From Methanosarcina sp. Ant1 (GTDB lineage Archaea; Halobacteriota; Methanosarcinia; Methanosarcinales; Methanosarcinaceae): DNA of 46,337 bases. Under the pieces are notes generated by a model. The model worked only from the letters and a program-made list of their open reading frames with translations, did no database searches and was not told the origin of the DNA. Positions 19,113 through 29,800 of this stretch are shown in pieces. Each line of letters starts with the position of its first letter. Within the stretch, counting starts at the first letter, position 1. The DNA lies in the NCBI GenBank assembly GCA_001714685.2, contig MDTP02000059.1:1-46337 (forward strand). Reading direction: 5' to 3'. The translations under genes were made by a program, and so were the position numbers.

Positions 19113-20228
19113 TCATTTTTCAAAATTATTCAGGCCTTCAAGAATAGAATCATACTTTTTGCAGACTCTCTGGAGGAGGTCGCCCTCTATGCTACGGTGA
19201 GTGGGTATTAAGATTCGAGCTCCTTTCTCTATCTTTACGCCGCTTCTTGAAGTCTCGTAGTCCGGAGCAACAAGAATGCCGTCTGAGGAGATTCCAAGGG
19301 AAAGGTCATTTACGATCCTTGAGACCATTTCAGTTGCCGGTTTTACCTTTTTCTCGATAAGAACAGAGGAAGAAACATACTTTTCCCGGGTATCCCTGAT
19401 ATTCTTAAGAGTATTTTCCACTTTTTTAAAGTCCACATCATCGGGAAGTTCTTCAGCGAGTGAAGAAACTGCTTCTATAAGATCTTCAAAAGTTGTTGAA
19501 TGCATCTCGAGGATTTCGCCGTCACAGTACTGCCGTAAAGTATCAATGTAACCGGCTGAGACCACCAGCACATCAACCTCAAGCAAGCGTGAGACCTCCT
19601 GCTTCGAAGGCGAGTAAGCATTGACAACCGAGTATTCTTTGATCCCACACATGCTCATGAGAGATTCATACATCGGAGTCACGGCAATTGTCTTTTTTCG
19701 TAACCACAGGTTGATCTCACTCTGCCCACCCTGCGACTTTAAAAGTTCAAGGATTTTATCCTTTATGGCTTTCGGGTCATTTTTTTTAAGCCCGAAATAA
19801 TCTGCAAAAAGAGATGTTGTGGAAAGCTGCCTGCTCCTTCCGCTGGGTACGGACTCCACAAATCCTCGCTCTATCAGGTCCTTAATATGATCATAAGCCC
19901 CGCTCCCCCTCATATCAATGAGATCTGACTGTAGCAAAGGCTGGTGATAGGCAATCATGGAAAGAGTACGGAGTTTCGGGGCTGAGAGCTCTTTTGGGGC
20001 AACTTCCCGCATGAGTTCTGAGTATTCGGGCTTGACCTGCATGACATAACGTTCCCCAAGGTCGATAATCTCAATGCCAGACCTTCTGGAAGAGTAAGCC
20101 TTCATCAGCTCCTGTACTGCCGACAGAACAGCTTTTTTGGGTTTTCCGGTTATTTTTGTAAGCTTCTCGATACTTACTGCCCTTCCAGCAGCAAAAAGCG
20201 CCGCTTCGATAATTTCAAGCTCACTCAT
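19113..20228 (-). CDS. scpB: Segregation and condensation protein B with a long C-terminal extension
   Basis: Kleisin-associated subunit of the SMC complex. Residues 1-about 170 match ScpB: two winged helices, beginning LEIIEAALFAAGRAVS and including KLRTLSMIAYHQP and RGFVESVPSGRSRQLSTTSLFADYFGL. Bacterial ScpB usually ends soon after this; here about 195 more residues follow (371 in all) that I cannot assign. They hold a predicted helical part (EDLIEAVSSLAEELPDDVDF) and a mixed C-terminal part. I chose the ATG at 20226-20228; a TTG five codons upstream is possible. It is the last gene of the smc operon, separated from scpA by 204 bases containing a tandem repeat. Confidence 0.88.
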   Translation of the reverse strand: MSELEIIEAALFAAGRAVSIEKLTKITGKPKKAVLSAVQELMKAYSSRRSGIEIIDLGERYVMQVKPEYSELMREVAPKELSAPKLRTLSMIAYHQPLLQSDLIDMRGSGAYDHIKDLIERGFVESVPSGRSRQLSTTSLFADYFGLKKNDPKAIKDKILELLKSQGGQSEINLWLRKKTIAVTPMYESLMSMCGIKEYSVVNAYSPSKQEVSRLLEVDVLVVSAGYIDTLRQYCDGEILEMHSTTFEDLIEAVSSLAEELPDDVDFKKVENTLKNIRDTREKYVSSSVLIEKKVKPATEMVSRIVNDLSLGISSDGILVAPDYETSRSGVKIEKGARILIPTHRSIEGDLLQRVCKKYDSILEGLNNFEK

Positions 20229-20277
20229 GAGTTTCACGTCCAAAAAAGGATAAAAACGTTCTTTAATCGGATTAACT

Positions 20278-20432: not shown

Positions 20433-21458
20433 TCAAAGTACTGTTTTCTCGGGCTCGTTATCCACTTCCTCATCCAGGAAGATTTCACCTGTAAAATCTG
20501 CTTCCAAGGAACCCATAATTTGATACCCTGAAAATTCGCCTTTTGATTCTAACCATATCTCATGAAAGAGAGAGGGATTACCTTCTGTAGAAAAACCGGA
20601 CTTTTCTCCTGGATATATGTACAATTCCCCGAAAAGCTCATTCTGGAAAAGCCATATCTTCCTGCTTGAAGCAAGAAAGAGGAGAGAGAGATAATCCATA
20701 ATCTTGTCTTCACTTATTTCCAGGAAGCTGGAAAAAACCACTACATTCTGCATCATAAATAATTCAGCAAGCCTGGCCCAGATAAGCACCAGCCGCGAGC
20801 CAATGGCTTCCTCATGTGCAATGCCAAGGACATCCCCAGTTGTAAGCTGAGGGCATGAAAGAAGATGAGGATCTTCTGCGACCTGACGGGCTTTTTTTTC
20901 ATTTTTTCTGGAAAGAGTATTTTCGGCTTTCTTAAGTTCAAGAATAAGCTCGTTGAGGGTAACGGGTCTAGTAGAAACGCGGCGCACCGGAAGCTTCGGG
21001 ATAGGAAATTCATCAGGCTCAGGCAGATCCAGTTCGTCGAAAAAATCAGAATCAAATTCATTAACCTCTTCCTCTTCTACCTCGAGGATTCTCGAGGATT
21101 TCATACGAAGAAGAATAGCAGAATAAAGAAGTGTTCGTGAGGAAATTCTGAGGTCCATTTTCTTAAGTTCTTCCACCCTTCCCAGGAAACTGTCAGTGAG
21201 CTGTAAAATATCGATATCCCATGGGTCTATCTTCCCTTCCTGAGCAAGCTCAACCAGTATGCCCAGTGGTTCATAGGTCTCAAACTCTGAGATATCAAGC
21301 AGATTCCAATCAATTCCAAGATCTGACAGGGTGGTTGGCAGTCCATAAGTTTCTGGATCTAAAAAAAGGGATTCATTTTCTTCTGATTCACGAAAATCGC
21401 GAGCCTGAAGTCTGGGAACTTCCAGTGCCGCTCCCGCGTCATCCATAAGTTCATCCAT
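20433..21458 (-). CDS. scpA: Segregation and condensation protein A (kleisin)
   Basis: Kleisin subunit that bridges the SMC head domains. The 341-residue protein has the family core: YEPLGILVELAQEGKIDPWDIDI followed by LTDSFL and then SRTLLYSAILLRMKS. An acidic linker (EVEEEEVNEFDSDFFDELDLPEPDEF) comes next, and a winged-helix C-terminal part that contacts the SMC cap is expected at about 230-300. It is longer than the usual 240-270 residues, owing to about 45 extra N-terminal residues and the acidic linker. Its ATG overlaps the end of smc by 8 bases, so the two are coupled. Confidence 0.92.
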   Translation of the reverse strand: MDELMDDAGAALEVPRLQARDFRESEENESLFLDPETYGLPTTLSDLGIDWNLLDISEFETYEPLGILVELAQEGKIDPWDIDILQLTDSFLGRVEELKKMDLRISSRTLLYSAILLRMKSSRILEVEEEEVNEFDSDFFDELDLPEPDEFPIPKLPVRRVSTRPVTLNELILELKKAENTLSRKNEKKARQVAEDPHLLSCPQLTTGDVLGIAHEEAIGSRLVLIWARLAELFMMQNVVVFSSFLEISEDKIMDYLSLLFLASSRKIWLFQNELFGELYIYPGEKSGFSTEGNPSLFHEIWLESKGEFSGYQIMGSLEADFTGEIFLDEEVDNEPEKTVL

Positions 21459-24400
21459 TAAGCTTCACTCCGGTAATGCTCGTGATATTCTTTTCCTGCA
21501 TTGTGACTCCTATAGTCCTGCTTGCGGCCTGAATCATGGGTTTTCTTAAGGAAACAACTATAAACTGAACTTTTGACCCTGAAGATTTTACCCGCCTTGA
21601 AACCCTTTCCACATTCCAGCCATCCAGGAACATATCAATTTCGTCAAATGCATAGAAAGGAGCAGGACGATATTGCTGGATCGCAAAAATGAAAGCAAGA
21701 GCTGTAAGGCTTTTTTCCCCACCGGACATGGCTTCGATCCGCTGGAGGGTCTTTTCTTTGGGCTGAGCCCGGAGGGTCATTCCTCTTGCAAAGGGATCGT
21801 TAGGGTCTTCAAGTAAGAGCTCACCCATGCCGTCAGAAAGCTCATGGAAAATAACTTTAAAGTTGGCATTAATGCTTGTATAGGCTTCCATAAAAGAATT
21901 CCGCTTTAGCTGCTCGTACTGGTCGATGCGCTCCAGGAGCTGCTCCCTCTCGGTAAAGAGGATATCCCGCTTTTCCTGCATATCCGAAAGCCTGTGTTCT
22001 ACTTCGTCATACTCGTCAATTGCTCTCATATTCACGGGCTCAAGCCGTTTGAGGGCTTCTTCGATTGCCTGAAGTCGCATATAAACGGTTTCATAATTCG
22101 GAACCTCATCAATTTCCTCTATGCCCCTTCTCTGGATTTCTACCATGAACTGCTTTTCCTGGTCAAGAAGCGCATTTCTTGTAGCTGTAAGCGTAACCAC
22201 CTGTTGTTTTGCCTTTTCCAGAGTAGTTGTGGCAATGCTGACCCTGCGCTTCACAGCCCCATGTTCGGCCTGAAGACTTTCTCTTTCTTTTTGAAGCCCT
22301 ATAAGTTCATCGGAAAGTTGAAGTTCCCGACTCTTCTTTTCCTCGAGCTTTTCCTCGAGTTCCCTGATCTTCACCTTTAAAGAGTCAACTTTTTGCAGCC
22401 TGGTGGCTTTCTTTTCATCAAGGTCCCGAATAAGTTCCTTTGCTTCGGCAATCTTCTGTTCCGCATATTCTTTTTCAAGCTGTAGAGCATTCAGGCTTGC
22501 CTCAGTATCCCGGATTCTGCCTTCAAGCCGCCTGAGTTCCTGGTCAACAAATTCCACTTTTTTATTGATCTGGGGCAGAGGGGAGTCAGCAAGTTTTGTC
22601 TCAATTTCGGAAATCTGTACTTCAAATTCAGCTATAGCTTCTTCTTTTTCAGCCTTTTCCGAAATGACTTTATCCATTTCAGCCCTGAGTTCGGTTCTGA
22701 AGTTCTCGATTGCTTTGAGATCCGCCTGTTTAGTTTCAAGAAGTTCTGCAAGTTTAGCTTCCCTGCCTGCGATTTCCTCAAGCTCACGTTCCTGTCTTGA
22801 GATCGTAGCTTCACAGTCCCTAATTTTCCGGCTCAATTCGAAGAGGTGACTTTCAATACTGTCCTGTTTGCCTATAGCTGCAGTCCGGCTTGCATCTAAG
22901 GAATTGAGCTCTTCTGCAAGCTCAAGAAGTTTATCCTTTTCTGCAGCTGCAAAAGAAATTCCCGACTTCGAAGCGATGGAACCTCCTACCATCGCCCCGC
23001 TCTTTTCCAGGAGTTCGCCTTCAAGGGTAACCATCCTTGCCTTTCCCATGAGGCGGCGAGCACTTGCCATGTTTTCCATCACAAGGGTATCCTGGAAAAC
23101 GTACCAGAAAGCAGGTTCGAAATCGGAATCAAATTCTATCAAATCAATTGCGTAACCTATTACTCCATTTTCATAGCTAAGGTTTTCAAGCCGCCTTGAT
23201 TCTTTCATTTTGTTTAGGGGGAGGAAGGTAGCTCGCCCCCCTTTTCTACGCTTCAGGTATTCTATTGCTTCAGCCGCATCGGCATCCGTATCTACGACGA
23301 CTGCCTGCATCCGGTTTCCTGCGGCAATCTCCAGGGCTGTTGCATACTGCCTGTCCACCCTTCCTAACTGGGCAATCGTCCCGTGTATTCCAAAGAGATC
23401 TTCCTGTCGCGCAGCCCCAACTACCATCTCAACGGCCTTTGAATAGCCGCCCCCCTGTTCAGACGCCCGGACCCTCGCTTCAGTGATAGCATATTCCTGC
23501 TGAAGGTCATGAAGTTTGAGTTCAAGTTTCCTGATATCTTCCTTGATTCTAAAGTGACTTCTCTCGATATCGTCATGGTCTTTTATAAGAGATTCCATAT
23601 TTTCGGAAAGCTTTTCGATCTCATACTTCACAGAAAGTGCGTCGCTGTCAGAAGTAGTAACTGCTTCTTCTGCATCCCTTATCTGATTTTCAATTTCCCG
23701 GAGTTCCGAAGATTTTCTCCTGAGGGTATCCAGAAGCCGATCTTCGGTTCGGATGAGCTCATTCTTCTCGTTCTTTATGTCCTCAAGTTTCTTCCTGGCA
23801 GCCATGAGCTCATCCCTTGTCACAGCGTATTTTGTATCTACATCTGCAATCTTGCTCTGGAGCAGTATGCGTTCGGTTTTACGCTCGGAAAGTTCTGACG
23901 AGATGCTATCCGTTCTCAGATTCTCGGCTTCGATTTTCTCATCGAGTTCCCTGATTTTGCCTTTGGTGGAATCTATCTCTACAAAGGCTTTCCTGCGCCG
24001 TGAATCAGATTCTTCAAGTTCTGATTCCGAAAGCTCAATGCTGTCTACACAGCGCGAAATTTCTCCCTTTGTCTCTTCTATTTCCCTCTTGACCTGGAGC
24101 TGCTCATCCTCCCCCTTTTTCTGGATTTCAAGGGAAAGCTTTTCAAGAGCTTCTTCTAGAGCCTGGAGTTCCTGCATCCTCTCGTTTAGCAGGACCTGAA
24201 TTTTCTCAAGGTGCTCTTCTTTTCCAGCAAGCTCCTTATCAATATTTTTCTGTTCGATCCTTGCATCCTTGAGCTTAGAAAGCAGGATATAACCTTCAAA
24301 TTTGACTTTTTCAGTCTTGAGTGCCTGGTATTTTAAGGCCTGATCACGTTCCCCGGCCAGTTTCCCCAGCTGAGTCCGTACCTCTTCGAGAATAATATCT

Positions 24401-24978
24401 ACACGCTCTATCTGCTGTCTGACAACTTCCAGTTCACCCAGAGCCTTTTGCTTGCGCTCGTCAAATTCCGCAACTCCTGCAATTTCGTCGATAATCTTTC
24501 GCCTTTCTACAGAGCTCATTGAAATTATCTGTGTGACATCCCCCTGCATGACCACATTGTAACCTTCAGGAGTCACCCCGGCTTTTGCAAGCTGGGAATG
24601 TATTTCCCCAAGGCTTACGGCTTTTCCGTTGAAGTAAAAATAGCTGTAGTACCCGCTTTTTGTCCGCCGAACCTTTCTTGAAATCTCAACCTCGTCAAGA
24701 TCCAGAGGCATCTTGCGGTCGGCATTATCAAAACGGATCGTAACCTGGGCAAAATCAGGCTTCTTTGCCTCGTCGCCGTTGTATATAAGGTCCGTAAGTT
24801 TCTCAGCTCGAAGAGTTCTGGAAGTGGTAAGCCCGAGTGCAAAGAGAATCCCATCTATGATGTTTGACTTCCCACTTCCATTAGGACCGGAAATAGTGGT
24901 AAAGTCATTATAAAAGGGAATCTTTACTTTTTTTCCGAAGGACTTAAAATTAACGAATTCGATCTCTTTTATATACAC
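21451..24978 (-). CDS. smc: Chromosome segregation protein SMC
   Basis: Long ATPase (1175 residues, normal length) that forms the ring of the prokaryotic condensin. The N-terminal head has Walker A GPNGSGKSN (31-39) and the Q-loop region. Two coiled-coil arms (about 170-500 and 670-1000) flank a hinge near 510-660 (GIHGTIAQLGRVDRQYATAL). The C-terminal head has the signature MSGGEKSLTALAF and Walker B YAFDEIDMFLDG. It is the second gene of an operon beginning with an unrecognised coiled-coil protein 48 bases upstream, and is followed by scpA (8-base overlap) and scpB. Confidence 0.98.
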   Translation of the reverse strand: MYIKEIEFVNFKSFGKKVKIPFYNDFTTISGPNGSGKSNIIDGILFALGLTTSRTLRAEKLTDLIYNGDEAKKPDFAQVTIRFDNADRKMPLDLDEVEISRKVRRTKSGYYSYFYFNGKAVSLGEIHSQLAKAGVTPEGYNVVMQGDVTQIISMSSVERRKIIDEIAGVAEFDERKQKALGELEVVRQQIERVDIILEEVRTQLGKLAGERDQALKYQALKTEKVKFEGYILLSKLKDARIEQKNIDKELAGKEEHLEKIQVLLNERMQELQALEEALEKLSLEIQKKGEDEQLQVKREIEETKGEISRCVDSIELSESELEESDSRRRKAFVEIDSTKGKIRELDEKIEAENLRTDSISSELSERKTERILLQSKIADVDTKYAVTRDELMAARKKLEDIKNEKNELIRTEDRLLDTLRRKSSELREIENQIRDAEEAVTTSDSDALSVKYEIEKLSENMESLIKDHDDIERSHFRIKEDIRKLELKLHDLQQEYAITEARVRASEQGGGYSKAVEMVVGAARQEDLFGIHGTIAQLGRVDRQYATALEIAAGNRMQAVVVDTDADAAEAIEYLKRRKGGRATFLPLNKMKESRRLENLSYENGVIGYAIDLIEFDSDFEPAFWYVFQDTLVMENMASARRLMGKARMVTLEGELLEKSGAMVGGSIASKSGISFAAAEKDKLLELAEELNSLDASRTAAIGKQDSIESHLFELSRKIRDCEATISRQERELEEIAGREAKLAELLETKQADLKAIENFRTELRAEMDKVISEKAEKEEAIAEFEVQISEIETKLADSPLPQINKKVEFVDQELRRLEGRIRDTEASLNALQLEKEYAEQKIAEAKELIRDLDEKKATRLQKVDSLKVKIRELEEKLEEKKSRELQLSDELIGLQKERESLQAEHGAVKRRVSIATTTLEKAKQQVVTLTATRNALLDQEKQFMVEIQRRGIEEIDEVPNYETVYMRLQAIEEALKRLEPVNMRAIDEYDEVEHRLSDMQEKRDILFTEREQLLERIDQYEQLKRNSFMEAYTSINANFKVIFHELSDGMGELLLEDPNDPFARGMTLRAQPKEKTLQRIEAMSGGEKSLTALAFIFAIQQYRPAPFYAFDEIDMFLDGWNVERVSRRVKSSGSKVQFIVVSLRKPMIQAASRTIGVTMQEKNITSITGVKLNG

Positions 24979-25026: not shown

Positions 25027-26019
25027 TCAATACGCCTTGGAATTCTTCCGGCTGCAGGTGATAAGTTCTGCGTCCTCATTTTCCCGCAGGTCCACAGACT
25101 CTTCTATTAAATGCTTTTTTGTAGACTTTTCAGCGATTATATATTCACACTTATAATCATCTGCAGGTTTGGCTCTTACCGGGTCTGCCTTTACGGGAGC
25201 AGGCTGTCTGGAAGGTGCCGGCTGTCTAACAGTAGACGGCTGTCTAACAGTAGATGGCTGTCTGGAAGGTTCCGGCCTTATAAGTTCCGCTCTTCCCAAA
25301 GGCTGCTGTCTCATATTGCCTTTAAAACGTCTTTTATCTCCGCTCTCGGCAATAATATACTCGCATTTTGTTTCAATTTCTTCTTCATCAAGTTCTCTTG
25401 GCTCGATCTCTCTAAGCTTCAGCTGAACTCTCGCACTGGTGCCTGGTAGGGGGGCAGGCGTTTCCCTGAATTTAGTCATTCCGCATGTTGGAGTTTCTTT
25501 TCTGAATTCGGGGTTGTGCTTTGGCTTTATGGAAAGAGGAGGGAGATCCAGAGGGTCTTCAGGAAGAGTAAGAGAAACAGAAGGAGATGGAGCCTGAGTA
25601 GTGCTCTTCATTTCCTCCAGCTTTTTAGTGAGGTTTCCGACCTCAGTCTCTAATTTTTTTATAAGGATTTTTTGGTCAAGCATTTCCCGGACGAGTCCAT
25701 CCTGAATCCCGGCAATTTCCCTCAGCCGCCGATCAGCTGCTCCCAAATCATTTTCCCTGGGAGCTTTTAATTCCATTTTCAATTCATTGAGGATTGAAGT
25801 CTTGAGTAAGGCAGGATTAGGGATCCCCATCAGTTCGGTCCTGATTTCGGAAAGTACCGTATCCTTTAAGGATTCCTGATCGGAAACGTGTTCCATTTCG
25901 GCTCGTAGTTCATTGATAACCGAAACCTTTATCGATTTCTTGAGAGTCTCGAGCTCCTCATAGCTTATTGACAGTCGCCTTTTAGGTGTATTGTGCACGT
26001 CCCTCTGTCCAGTTATCAT
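25027..26019 (-). CDS. Unrecognised coiled-coil/proline-rich protein heading the smc operon
   Basis: I do not recognise this 330-residue protein. Residues 31-42, 52-63 and 73-84 are three copies of a helical repeat (KVSVINELRAEM, KDTVLSEIRTEL, KTSILNELKMEL) with an exact 21-residue period, i.e. three heptads. A coiled coil follows at about 95-140. The next 150 residues are proline-rich and probably disordered, with RQPSTV and RQPAP repeats (253-275). The motif KCEYIIAE occurs twice, at 218-225 and at 290-297 near the C-terminus, like a short binding module. The ATG at 26017-26019 follows GAGAGGT; an earlier start at 26037 is less likely. It ends 48 bases before smc, so a link to chromosome organisation is an inference from the operon. 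Confidence 0.8.
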   Translation of the reverse strand: MITGQRDVHNTPKRRLSISYEELETLKKSIKVSVINELRAEMEHVSDQESLKDTVLSEIRTELMGIPNPALLKTSILNELKMELKAPRENDLGAADRRLREIAGIQDGLVREMLDQKILIKKLETEVGNLTKKLEEMKSTTQAPSPSVSLTLPEDPLDLPPLSIKPKHNPEFRKETPTCGMTKFRETPAPLPGTSARVQLKLREIEPRELDEEEIETKCEYIIAESGDKRRFKGNMRQQPLGRAELIRPEPSRQPSTVRQPSTVRQPAPSRQPAPVKADPVRAKPADDYKCEYIIAEKSTKKHLIEESVDLRENEDAELITCSRKNSKAY

Positions 26020-26136
26020 AAAAATACCTCTCATCATAAATAGGGTCCGATTCCCTGATTGCCTGCAGTTTTTTGCCAGCAGAGCACATCAGCACAATTA
26101 TAATAAATTGATTCGCTCAGACAAATTTAAATAATG

Positions 26137-26172
26137 TGTACAAAGTACATGTAATATTACTTTATATATATA
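26137..26172 (-). promoter_or_regulatory. Promoter of the smc operon with a TGTAC-AAA-GTACA palindrome
   Basis: A minus-strand TATA element (26161-26172) lies about 140 bases before the first gene. About 11 bases downstream of it is TGTAC-AAA-GTACA (26137-26149), a perfect palindrome placed where a repressor would cover the transcription start. No regulator is identified. Confidence 0.45.
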
Positions 26173-27090
26173 TGGTAATCGATACTATTTTTCAGCCTTA
26201 CGTGACTTACAATCATAGTCAGCACAGAAAATATTTACACTTTATAAATTTGGCTCTATTATAAGAATGTGGTTCAAAAGTGTAATTAATTCGTGAGGTC
26301 ATTGTAAATTAAAATAAGACTTACTTTGATAATGTTTTCGAAAATATTTGTAAGAACCAGCTTGGAGAAGAGAAACAGAAAGAAGTATATTGCAAAACAC
26401 GGATAAAAGTAGAGAAAAACAGACTCAGATTAATGCAAAATTGGGGAATGAAATCCAATATTAACTCTAAAATAAAATGAATTAAAGGGTTGGATTTCAG
26501 TCAGGGGATAGAAATTTGTTAAGGGAAGTGTTAGTTGATGGATGGAAAAGAATTTTCGAAATCGATTAATACGTTCTCCCTGGATTGAATTTTGGAGGGC
26601 GTACAGTCCATTTCCACAGCGTTTTCGTTAACAATAGAACCGTGGGTCCCAGTGCTCTCAAGGAAAAATTGAACCTCTTCAAGTTCAGGCTCGCGGAAAT
26701 GATCCATTTCTATAATATCCATAATAACACTCAACACGTTTTTGTGTAAGTGATTGGTAATTCGGGTCATCGAGATAAACACGATATGCTAAGTATTAAT
26801 AATTTGCGGTAAACAAAACATCAAGAAATGAATAAATAAACATATTAACATATAAATATTGTGCCTGGGGTACAATAGAGTGCCTTCCATAAAATGATCT
26901 TAAAAATCGATGAAGAAAATTGTTTGTTTTTGGGATCCAATATCATAAAAATTAACAAAAGTTTCTTTAATTTATTTCTTTTACTACACCTTAATCTGTT
27001 TTGTTTTCTAGCTCATTCCTTCACCTAAAGGGAGAAAAGCGAACAGAAGTAAATAGAAGAATGAAAAAGAGAAAGAATAAAAGGGAAAAC
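26173..27090. other. Intergenic region between the smc operon promoter and feoB
   Basis: About 900 AT-rich bases. One short possible gene (26531-26722) is listed separately; nothing else supportable is seen. The feoB frame ends at 27091 without an obvious strong hairpin. Confidence 0.45.
26531..26722 (-). CDS. Hypothetical small acidic protein (63 residues)
   Basis: An acidic small frame starting MDIIEMDHFREPELEEVQFF, with GAGTG before the ATG at 26720-26722. The frame is open up to 26782. I recognise no family. It may be a real Methanosarcina-specific gene or a chance frame in a long spacer; the non-random acidic composition is the only support. Confidence 0.3.
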   Translation of the reverse strand: MDIIEMDHFREPELEEVQFFLESTGTHGSIVNENAVEMDCTPSKIQSRENVLIDFENSFPSIN

Positions 27091-29070
27091 TCAAAGGAAA
27101 GAAGGTCCGAAAACCCTGATCAGAATACCTACTCCAAGGGCCAGAAATATAGTGAAAAGGACTATCAAAGCCGTATCTTTTACTCCAAGCTCGTGCTTTA
27201 GTACTGCAATAGTTGCGACACATGGCACATAAATTGTCGTGATGACAGCAAACTGGTACATCTGAACAGGTGTCATTACAGCTGCAAAGTTGGCTGTGCC
27301 TGCGAGTACGGCCAGTATCTGGAGAGCCATTTCTTTTCGAAGAATTCCAAAAACAAGAGCTGTTGCAGCAAATGCCGGAAGGCCCAAAAGGCCAACGGAT
27401 ATAGGTTCTACAAAGTTCTGGAAGATCGAAAGAAGGCCCAGAGCATCGGCGATTCCGAGAAACGCGCTTCCAAGAAGCAGAAGTGGGAAAGCAATAAATA
27501 AAAACTCCCGACTTTTCATCCAGGTTTTCCGCAGGACAGATTTCAGTTCCGGCTTTCTGAGGGGAGTCATTTCCATGATAAAACCACTTCTCTGGCCTGG
27601 AAGAGTCTTTCCGAGAATCCAGCCCATGGAGGCAATGATAAGAATCTCCATGACATAAATTGAAACAGCAGGCCAGAAGCCTACAAAAGTTCCCACTAGT
27701 CCCAGGATGATAACTGTTCTGGCAGAGCAGGGAATAAGGGCTATCAGAAGAGAAGCTATCCTCTTTTCCCGCCGCGTGCCGAGGGCATGCACTGCCATAA
27801 TTGCAGGAACATTACAGCCAAACCCCAGAACCAGAGGGATGACAGCTCTCCCATGAAGCCCAAGCTTATGAGTGAGGTTGTCCAGGAGAAAAGCTGCCCT
27901 GGTGAGGTAGCCCGAATCCTCGAATATGGAAAGGATGGCATAAAACACTGCAATATAAGGAATTGCAATTGCAAATCCGGCTTCCACCCCCCTAAGGGAA
28001 TACAAGATGATATTTCTCAGGACAGGCGACATGCCTAAAGTCATAGTTTCTACAGGCAGGATTACATGGGGCTCAAATAAATCGTTCACAATCCAATTCT
28101 CAAGGAAACCTCCTACACGAAAAACAAGAAGGAAAGTAAGGAGCAGTGCAGATATAAGTACCACAATTCCGAAATTCGGGGAAGTAAGTATCGCATCTAT
28201 CCTACCCTTTATGCTTTTTTTGGGCTCGAACCTCGAGACCACGCTGTCCACTATATATCCGGCTTCCCCATACAAATCTCTTGCAACTGTGTCAGGTACA
28301 GAAATACCGTGCTCCATCTCGAGATTCTGCCTTAACCGCCTGGCAAAAGACAGCAGAGCATTAGCCTCAGGCGGCATACAGCAGAGTTCTACAAACTCGG
28401 CATCATTCAGGAGCGCTGCAGTCTTTACACTTAAAGAGAGATTTGGAAAAGAATAGTCTAGTTTGGACAGAGCCCGTTGGATCCAATGACTGTACTCTAC
28501 ACGGTGGTGTATCTGAGTTTTTTCCATCTCTTCAAGGGCTACGAGCACTACCTCATCAAGTCCTACCCCCCAGGTCGCAACCGTTGGCACTACAGGCAGA
28601 CCAAGCAGTTCAGAGAGCCTTTCGACGTCAACAAGGACTCCAAGATCTGCAGCCAGATCCACCTGGTTTAAGGCGATGACCATAGGGATATCGAGTTCCA
28701 GGAGTTGCAGGGTAAGAAATAGATTTCTTTCAAGCCTGCTTGCATCCAGAACGTTGATGATGATATCCGGTTGATCCTCAATGAGAAATTTCTTGGTTAC
28801 CTTTTCATCTTCATTTGTAACCCCAAGGGAATAAATTCCAGGAAGGTCAACTACTTCAATGTTTTTACCCCGAGCCTTTACGATTCCTCTTTTAAGTGCA
28901 ACTGTCGTGCCCGGGTAGTTTGAGACCTCAACACCTACGCCTGTAAGCCTGCTGAAGAAAACACTTTTTCCAACGCTTGGATTACCTATGAAGGCAATCG
29001 TCATATCATAAGGGGTTTTGCTCTTACTTGAGTTTCCAGAAGTACAGCATGAGCTAGAAATTCTAATCAC
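27091..29070 (-). CDS. feoB: Ferrous iron transport protein FeoB
   Basis: Membrane Fe(II) transporter. The 659-residue protein has an N-terminal G domain with G1 GNPSVGKS (29-36), G3 DLPG and G4 NQVD (in MVIALNQVDLAAD). A helical GDI region comes next, and then the permease part with about eight membrane helices, including the gate-like motif GFGCNVPAIMA and the repeat YSLRGVEAGFAIAIPYIAVF. The N-terminus has CC (8-9), as in several archaeal FeoBs. The start is a GTG at 29068-29070 with GGAG close by; an ATG at codon 23 is a less likely alternative because it lacks a ribosome site. No separate feoA or feoC lies beside it. It follows a DtxR-type regulator by 52 bases and is likely co-transcribed. 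Confidence 0.95.
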   Translation of the reverse strand: MIRISSSCCTSGNSSKSKTPYDMTIAFIGNPSVGKSVFFSRLTGVGVEVSNYPGTTVALKRGIVKARGKNIEVVDLPGIYSLGVTNEDEKVTKKFLIEDQPDIIINVLDASRLERNLFLTLQLLELDIPMVIALNQVDLAADLGVLVDVERLSELLGLPVVPTVATWGVGLDEVVLVALEEMEKTQIHHRVEYSHWIQRALSKLDYSFPNLSLSVKTAALLNDAEFVELCCMPPEANALLSFARRLRQNLEMEHGISVPDTVARDLYGEAGYIVDSVVSRFEPKKSIKGRIDAILTSPNFGIVVLISALLLTFLLVFRVGGFLENWIVNDLFEPHVILPVETMTLGMSPVLRNIILYSLRGVEAGFAIAIPYIAVFYAILSIFEDSGYLTRAAFLLDNLTHKLGLHGRAVIPLVLGFGCNVPAIMAVHALGTRREKRIASLLIALIPCSARTVIILGLVGTFVGFWPAVSIYVMEILIIASMGWILGKTLPGQRSGFIMEMTPLRKPELKSVLRKTWMKSREFLFIAFPLLLLGSAFLGIADALGLLSIFQNFVEPISVGLLGLPAFAATALVFGILRKEMALQILAVLAGTANFAAVMTPVQMYQFAVITTIYVPCVATIAVLKHELGVKDTALIVLFTIFLALGVGILIRVFGPSFL

Positions 29071-29122
29071 ATCTCCATTTATTTTGCTCTATGCCAGTTA
29101 TATGCCTGCTTAGTTCCTGACT

Positions 29123-29788
29123 TTACATGCGTTTATTACTGGGGGTTATGAAAATTTTCTTTGCAATGTCTTTTCCAAGAGCAATTTCCGACCCCATTGT
29201 TATAACCGAGATGCAGCCTTGTTTTTGCTTACGCCTAACTTCAAGATCTTCCCCGGTAAGGATACCGAGGGAGTTTAAGCGCTCCCTTGTTTCCCTGGGA
29301 AGGGTCACTCGGGCAACTTTGCCAGTGCTTCCCTCTTCCATTTCATCAAGAGGGATGAATCCGTCTTCTCGCTTGATATTGCTTTTATCAATATTAATAG
29401 AGTGCCCGTCAGGGCAATATTCGGGATTACCCATAAATTCGTAAATCTTCTCAAGTACAGAGTCAGATACTGCATGCTCAAGTTCGCAGGCTTCTCTATG
29501 AGCTTCCTTCCGATCAAAACCAAGGACATCAACCAGGAAAGTCTCAAGCACCTGATGCTTCCTTTTAATTCTGATGGCTTCCTCAGTCCCTTTTTCTGTC
29601 AATTCGACCCCCTGATAAGGTGTATACTCCACAAGCCCTGAAGAATTTAATTTTTTTATCATTTCCGTCACGCTAGGCGGAGATACATTGAGTTCTTCAG
29701 ATATCTGTTTAGTTTTTGCAGGACTCTTGTTTTTTGTGATAAGGTAAAAAATAGTTTCAAGATATTCTTCAAGTCTATCTGTATTCAT
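29123..29788 (-). CDS. DtxR/IdeR/MntR-family metal-dependent transcriptional regulator
   Basis: A 221-residue metalloregulator. It has a winged helix-turn-helix (about 1-65: TKQISEELNVSPPSVTEMIKKLNSSGLVEY split by the turn), a metal-binding/dimerisation domain (about 66-140, with HREACELEHAVSD and C/H residues in NPEYCPDGH) and a C-terminal FeoA/SH3-like domain (about 150-221). With Fe(II) or Mn(II) bound it should repress. The ATG at 29786-29788 follows GGGAGGG. It precedes feoB in the same operon and has a DtxR-box-like palindrome in its own promoter, so it probably controls iron uptake by feedback. Confidence 0.93.
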   Translation of the reverse strand: MNTDRLEEYLETIFYLITKNKSPAKTKQISEELNVSPPSVTEMIKKLNSSGLVEYTPYQGVELTEKGTEEAIRIKRKHQVLETFLVDVLGFDRKEAHREACELEHAVSDSVLEKIYEFMGNPEYCPDGHSINIDKSNIKREDGFIPLDEMEEGSTGKVARVTLPRETRERLNSLGILTGEDLEVRRKQKQGCISVITMGSEIALGKDIAKKIFITPSNKRM

Positions 29789-29800
29789 TAACACCCTCCC

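Follow-up and report, generated by a model that had tools for sequence, protein, structure and literature searches.

A coiled-coil gene directly upstream of smc: a probable, overlooked partner for the SMC machine of archaea

It was the gene neighbourhood of smc that led to the proposal of ScpA and ScpB. In the window analysed here, a contig (G000:C59) of 46,337 nucleotides from a 4.29-Mb Methanosarcina genome, that neighbourhood holds one gene more, which we call gene X, and we asked whether its product belongs to the SMC machine. A sequence-only reading of the window had described an unrecognised coiled-coil protein and proposed that it is an added subunit, loader or regulator of the archaeal SMC complex, with a duplicated motif as a short binding peptide for a partner. 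A phylum-wide gene fixed beside smc would be a concrete candidate in archaeal SMC loading or regulation, one that is genetically testable in Haloferax and Methanosarcina.

The locus and the encoded protein

On the minus strand, the genes follow in the order gene X, smc, scpA and scpB, and the identities of SMC, ScpA and ScpB were confirmed by Pfam and NCBIfam matches (Table 1). The gap between gene X and smc measured 48 bp, the distance given by the sequence-only reading. A second in-frame ATG at 26037 would give a gene X protein of 336 aa; the orthologs start with MRTGQRD, which corresponds to the ATG at 26019, and this was taken as the start. Further upstream, feoB adjoins a gene for an iron-dependent repressor with a fused FeoA domain (27091-29794, minus strand). 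Between feoB and gene X lies a small open reading frame (26531-26782, minus strand) that encodes 79 aa from an internal ATG (MTRITNHLHKNVLSVIMDI...ESTGTHGSIVNE); it is clearly conserved in the neighbouring-genus loci L044, L045, L046, L060 and L061 and had no match in Pfam or NCBIfam.

Table 1. Positions of gene X, its parts and the adjoining features in the window
Feature	Coordinates	Strand	Remarks
Gene X (SMC-upstream coiled-coil gene, DUF7518-related)	25027..26019	-	330 aa
N-terminal helices, residues 20-84, with three 21-residue repeats	25768..25962	-	AlphaFold and self-alignment
Coiled-coil core, residues 92-141	25597..25746	-	AlphaFold helix; signature G-L/V-x-x-E-L/M-L-D-Q-K
Disordered proline-rich, charged tail, residues 142-330	25030..25596	-	pLDDT below 50
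Tail motif 1, KCEYIIAE, residues 218-225	25345..25368	-
Tail motif 2, KCEYIIAE, residues 290-297	25129..25152	-
C-terminal acidic/beta-like segment ENEDAELITCSRK, residues 313-325	25045..25083	-	Family conservation as EDxExITxxR
smc	21451..24978	-	GTG start; TIGR02169, 1444.7 bits
scpA	20433..21458	-	8 bp overlap with smc end; PF02616
scpB	19113..20243	-	PF04079, TIGR00281
TATA-like stretch ATATATATATAAAG, possible archaeal operon promoter	26160..26174	-	Sequence reading

The AlphaFold model, built with 15 sequences, placed helices at residues 20-64, 69-84 and 92-141 of the gene X protein, with an overall mean pLDDT of 54.7. Mean pLDDT exceeded 90 at residues 111-130 and stayed below 50 almost throughout from about residue 142 onwards. 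Within the coiled-coil core, G108, E112, D115 and K117 were invariant in alignment A1. The N-terminal repeat cores are KVSVINELRAEM (31-42), KDTVLSEIRTEL (52-63) and KTSILNELKMEL (73-84); self-alignment of residues 16-90 scored +44 at an offset of 21, a value reached by none of 2000 shuffles (mean at the best offset, 0.1). Both KCEYIIAE copies are exact, are invariant among 15 Methanosarcina sequences and have no further encoded occurrence in the genome outside gene X. The exact 21-residue period, the coiled coil with its disordered tail and the twofold motif, all of which had been read from the sequence alone, were thereby borne out.

Gene X proteins range from about 70 to 477 aa across relatives, and two parts are constant throughout the phylum. 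The first is the N-terminal helix with the coiled coil (RDxLIERLExKLxEKExEI ... GLxxELLDxK). The threefold repeat is limited to Methanosarcina and near genera, and other members carry the helix once; the comparison indicates that the repeat is a local expansion. Since most genera have a single copy, the idea that the repeat defines the protein was rejected. Internal repeats of another kind, NTQVLSQKSL/NTQVLDQNPS-type units unlike the 21-residue helix repeat, were seen in genus g4 (L044, 7654-8721), and a second gene X of this genus (L043, 2582-3706) holds an insert that differs from that of L044 and is also distinct from the helix repeat.

The second constant part is a set of one to three small hydrophobic, acidic-flanked motifs, approximately [YIL]-I-[IV]-[AVC]-[EDS], that lie within the tail or close it. 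All 22 representative members contained at least one copy, where shuffling predicts 0.01-0.18, the pattern having been derived from these same sequences. The motif takes the form EYIIAES or CEYI(I/V)AE in Methanosarcinaceae, DIIIA/IIIA in families f2 and f3, EYIVAS in f5, SDYIVAS with SDLIVAE in Methanomicrobia, MIIAD with LIYAD in Methanocellia and a C-terminal DEIIIVD in Archaeoglobi; in most haloarchaeal members, DIIVA is the exact C-terminus. Each lineage representative examined has a variant in its tail, which strengthens the earlier suggestion that the duplicated motif may be a short binding peptide.

Linkage of gene X to smc

A single-sequence search recovered gene X in 9 of the 14 genera of its family. 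Profiles built from relatives (A1 and A3) extended this to 176 of the 186 genomes in the order, including all 118 near-complete genomes and all 27 genera. In the phylum sample, the profile search was positive in 271 of 393 genomes, which is an underestimate because genomes missed by the profile also carry gene X before smc: nine such genomes (haloarchaea and Archaeoglobi), the weak positive G290 and further missed genomes all have it upstream of smc. Position was checked locus by locus, and weak profile scores were not accepted alone. The names of the lineage groups were inferred from protein content and named relatives.

Of the 94 homolog loci that could be assessed, 92 had gene X and smc on one strand, with gene X immediately upstream; two loci (L047 and L054), in which the contig end precedes any view of smc, were excluded from this count. 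The linked loci comprised 14/14 in Methanosarcina, 17/17 checkable loci of the family, 20/20 in the order, 20/20 in the phylum and 21 more that include haloarchaea. The sequence-only reading had named homologs lying mostly away from smc as the finding that would tell against it; the loci show direct linkage across most of the phylum. No gene X was found upstream of smc in the SMC-bearing groups f6 (G424 excepted), f12, f17, f20, f21, f22, f30 and f35, and therefore gene X is not required for SMC everywhere.

The two unlinked loci were found in G443 and G321. In G443 (L190, 1480-1893), gene X lies away from smc and keeps the motifs GEVIIAE, GQIIIAE and EDIIITAS. In G321, it follows aspS at a contig end, and smc-scpA-scpB lie elsewhere. 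Retention of gene X with its motifs away from smc in two lineages shows that the protein is maintained in its own right and acts as such, not only in cis. A gene for a calcineurin-like phosphoesterase was also observed shortly downstream of the G443 gene.

The sequences are under purifying selection, yet the gene X protein evolves several times faster than SMC: three of four pairs gave a dN/dS of about 0.20 and the other gave 0.42, compared with 0.06-0.09 for SMC.

Relation to known families

The gene X protein alone gave no meaningful match in Pfam, NCBIfam or PDB. Sub-threshold Pfam matches to DrrA_P4M and Cep57 (E 0.02-0.06) were taken as coiled-coil noise, as were the weak matches of its sequence profile to PDB (best E 0.012); when the fold of the AlphaFold model was searched for in PDB, no match was found. 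Against DUF7518 (PF24362), the protein showed no match at E<=0.1 and so stays below the Pfam gathering score. Nevertheless, profile A3, built from Methanosarcinales, retrieves the haloarchaeal, Methanomicrobia and Methanocellia genes that reach the Pfam cut-off for this family, which establishes homology through intermediates. Among 20 order-wide A3 members, 13 matched PF24362 at E<0.1, mostly weakly (best 1.4e-8), and the one Archaeoglobi member tested had no match. The earlier description as unrecognised thus holds for the protein alone and fails for its distant homologs, which are filed as DUF7518.

Pfam records no function for DUF7518, and we found no open-access paper that mentions it or describes an archaeal smc-upstream factor. 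DUF7518 genes share the site before smc with gene X, whose protein differs in its greater length, its expanded repeats and its possession of two tail motifs. The gene X family is therefore partly catalogued by Pfam, its reach and function not being captured there; fast sequence drift and the small size of the haloarchaeal members may explain why it was filed as DUF7518 only. ScpA and ScpB resemble gene X as smc-linked accessory genes in the same operon. However, the gene X protein matched neither the kleisin ScpA (PF02616) nor the KITE protein ScpB (PF04079, tandem winged helices); its model consists of helices and disorder only, a coiled coil with a disordered tail, and separate scpA and scpB are also present here.

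Likely partner and role

We compared the occurrence of gene X with that of SMC. SMC was present in all but one (G197) of the 271 gene X-positive genomes. Conversely, 58 genomes of the 393-genome sample had no SMC at E<=1e-30, and every one of these except G197 also lacked a gene X match, although this co-absence reflects few independent events because most of the listed SMC-less genomes belong to one family (f10). In families f2, f3 and f5, gene X lies 0-116 bp from smc and scpA is on another contig; in G117, a single contig, gene X and smc are located at about 204 kb and scpA at 859 kb. ScpB was undetected in Halobacteria and most Methanomicrobiales, and none of the six archaeal ScpAs tested bound its putative ScpB (PMC7055376). 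Gene X is present in both Halobacteria and Methanomicrobiales. Because it stays by smc where scpA has moved and occurs without ScpB, SMC itself appears a likelier partner than ScpA or ScpB. The separation of scpA from smc in the order families f2, f3 and f5 was observed at loci L094-L107.

The fixed place of gene X before smc across most of the phylum, from methanogens to haloarchaea, indicates that its product probably works with the archaeal SMC machine as a partner that has been overlooked. The core idea, a factor tied to archaeal SMC, is well supported by the comparative evidence; linkage and co-occurrence support the proposed added factor, and the subunit, loader and regulator that had been offered for it are indistinguishable here. 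We consider it fairly likely that gene X encodes an accessory SMC-machine protein across most SMC-bearing Halobacteriota and that its tail motifs serve as docking peptides. In the mechanism that we propose, the coiled coil would form an oligomer, and each oligomer would display several tail peptides; these would dock as edge beta-strands on SMC, or less likely on ScpA, and the docked protein would tether or regulate SMC dimers. The Halobacteriota SMC complex, reported as a binary SMC-ScpA assembly without a KITE protein, would then have a third component that has been overlooked and is new in kind, a multivalent coiled-coil protein whose short tail peptides bind SMC and which acts on SMC as a loader, tether or regulator; we put this fuller model forward tentatively, at slightly less than an even chance.

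Gene X could instead encode an adaptor, with the coiled coil or N-terminal helix holding SMC and the tail recruiting another machine (replication, division or transcription) or a loading platform. Such a protein fits the conservation seen in the signature of the coiled coil as well as in the tail motif, and it fits the linker between the two, which varies widely in length like a tether; however, the loci show no constant linkage to a second partner gene and no motif-binding domain was identified, and we regard the adaptor as unlikely. It is improbable that the linkage is inherited gene order only, with unrelated function: an aspS-gene X-smc order is conserved in some lineages, but the neighbours (aspS, feoB and rad50-like genes) change between groups as the gene X-smc pair persists, and gene X co-occurs almost completely with SMC.

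SUMO-interacting motif (SIM) proteins, by analogy only, resemble the gene X protein in their repeated short hydrophobic motifs, acidic flanks and disordered tails, and archaea possess ubiquitin-like modifiers (SAMPs). The I/V-rich hydrophobic cores of the tail motifs, acidic-flanked and often duplicated, might thus bind SAMPs and couple SMC to modified proteins or turnover, but such short patterns are degenerate and we consider this very improbable. Least probable of all is that gene X is mainly a cis element whose translation couples to and tunes that of smc, its protein having no SMC-related role: the gaps to smc are short, in places 0-4 bp or overlapping, but gaps of up to 100-270 bp also occur, G443 and G321 hold the gene away from smc with motifs intact, and dN/dS is about 0.2.

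Returning to the preferred reading, an accessory protein that docks on SMC, we compared SMC between lineages with and without gene X and found no matching surface. SMC columns changed solely in f6, which is mostly without gene X, lie together in the N-terminal lobe of the head (F22, T27, T106, G109, Y111 and Y113). This cluster was rejected as evidence for a gene X docking surface because it belongs to a single clade and other lineages without upstream gene X retain the YYS residues, which are kept in f11, f12, f17, f20, f22 and f30. Across loci L199-L207, f6 SMC carries clade-specific changes at the otherwise constant positions F22, T27, G49, T106, G109, Y111, Y113 and F1063.
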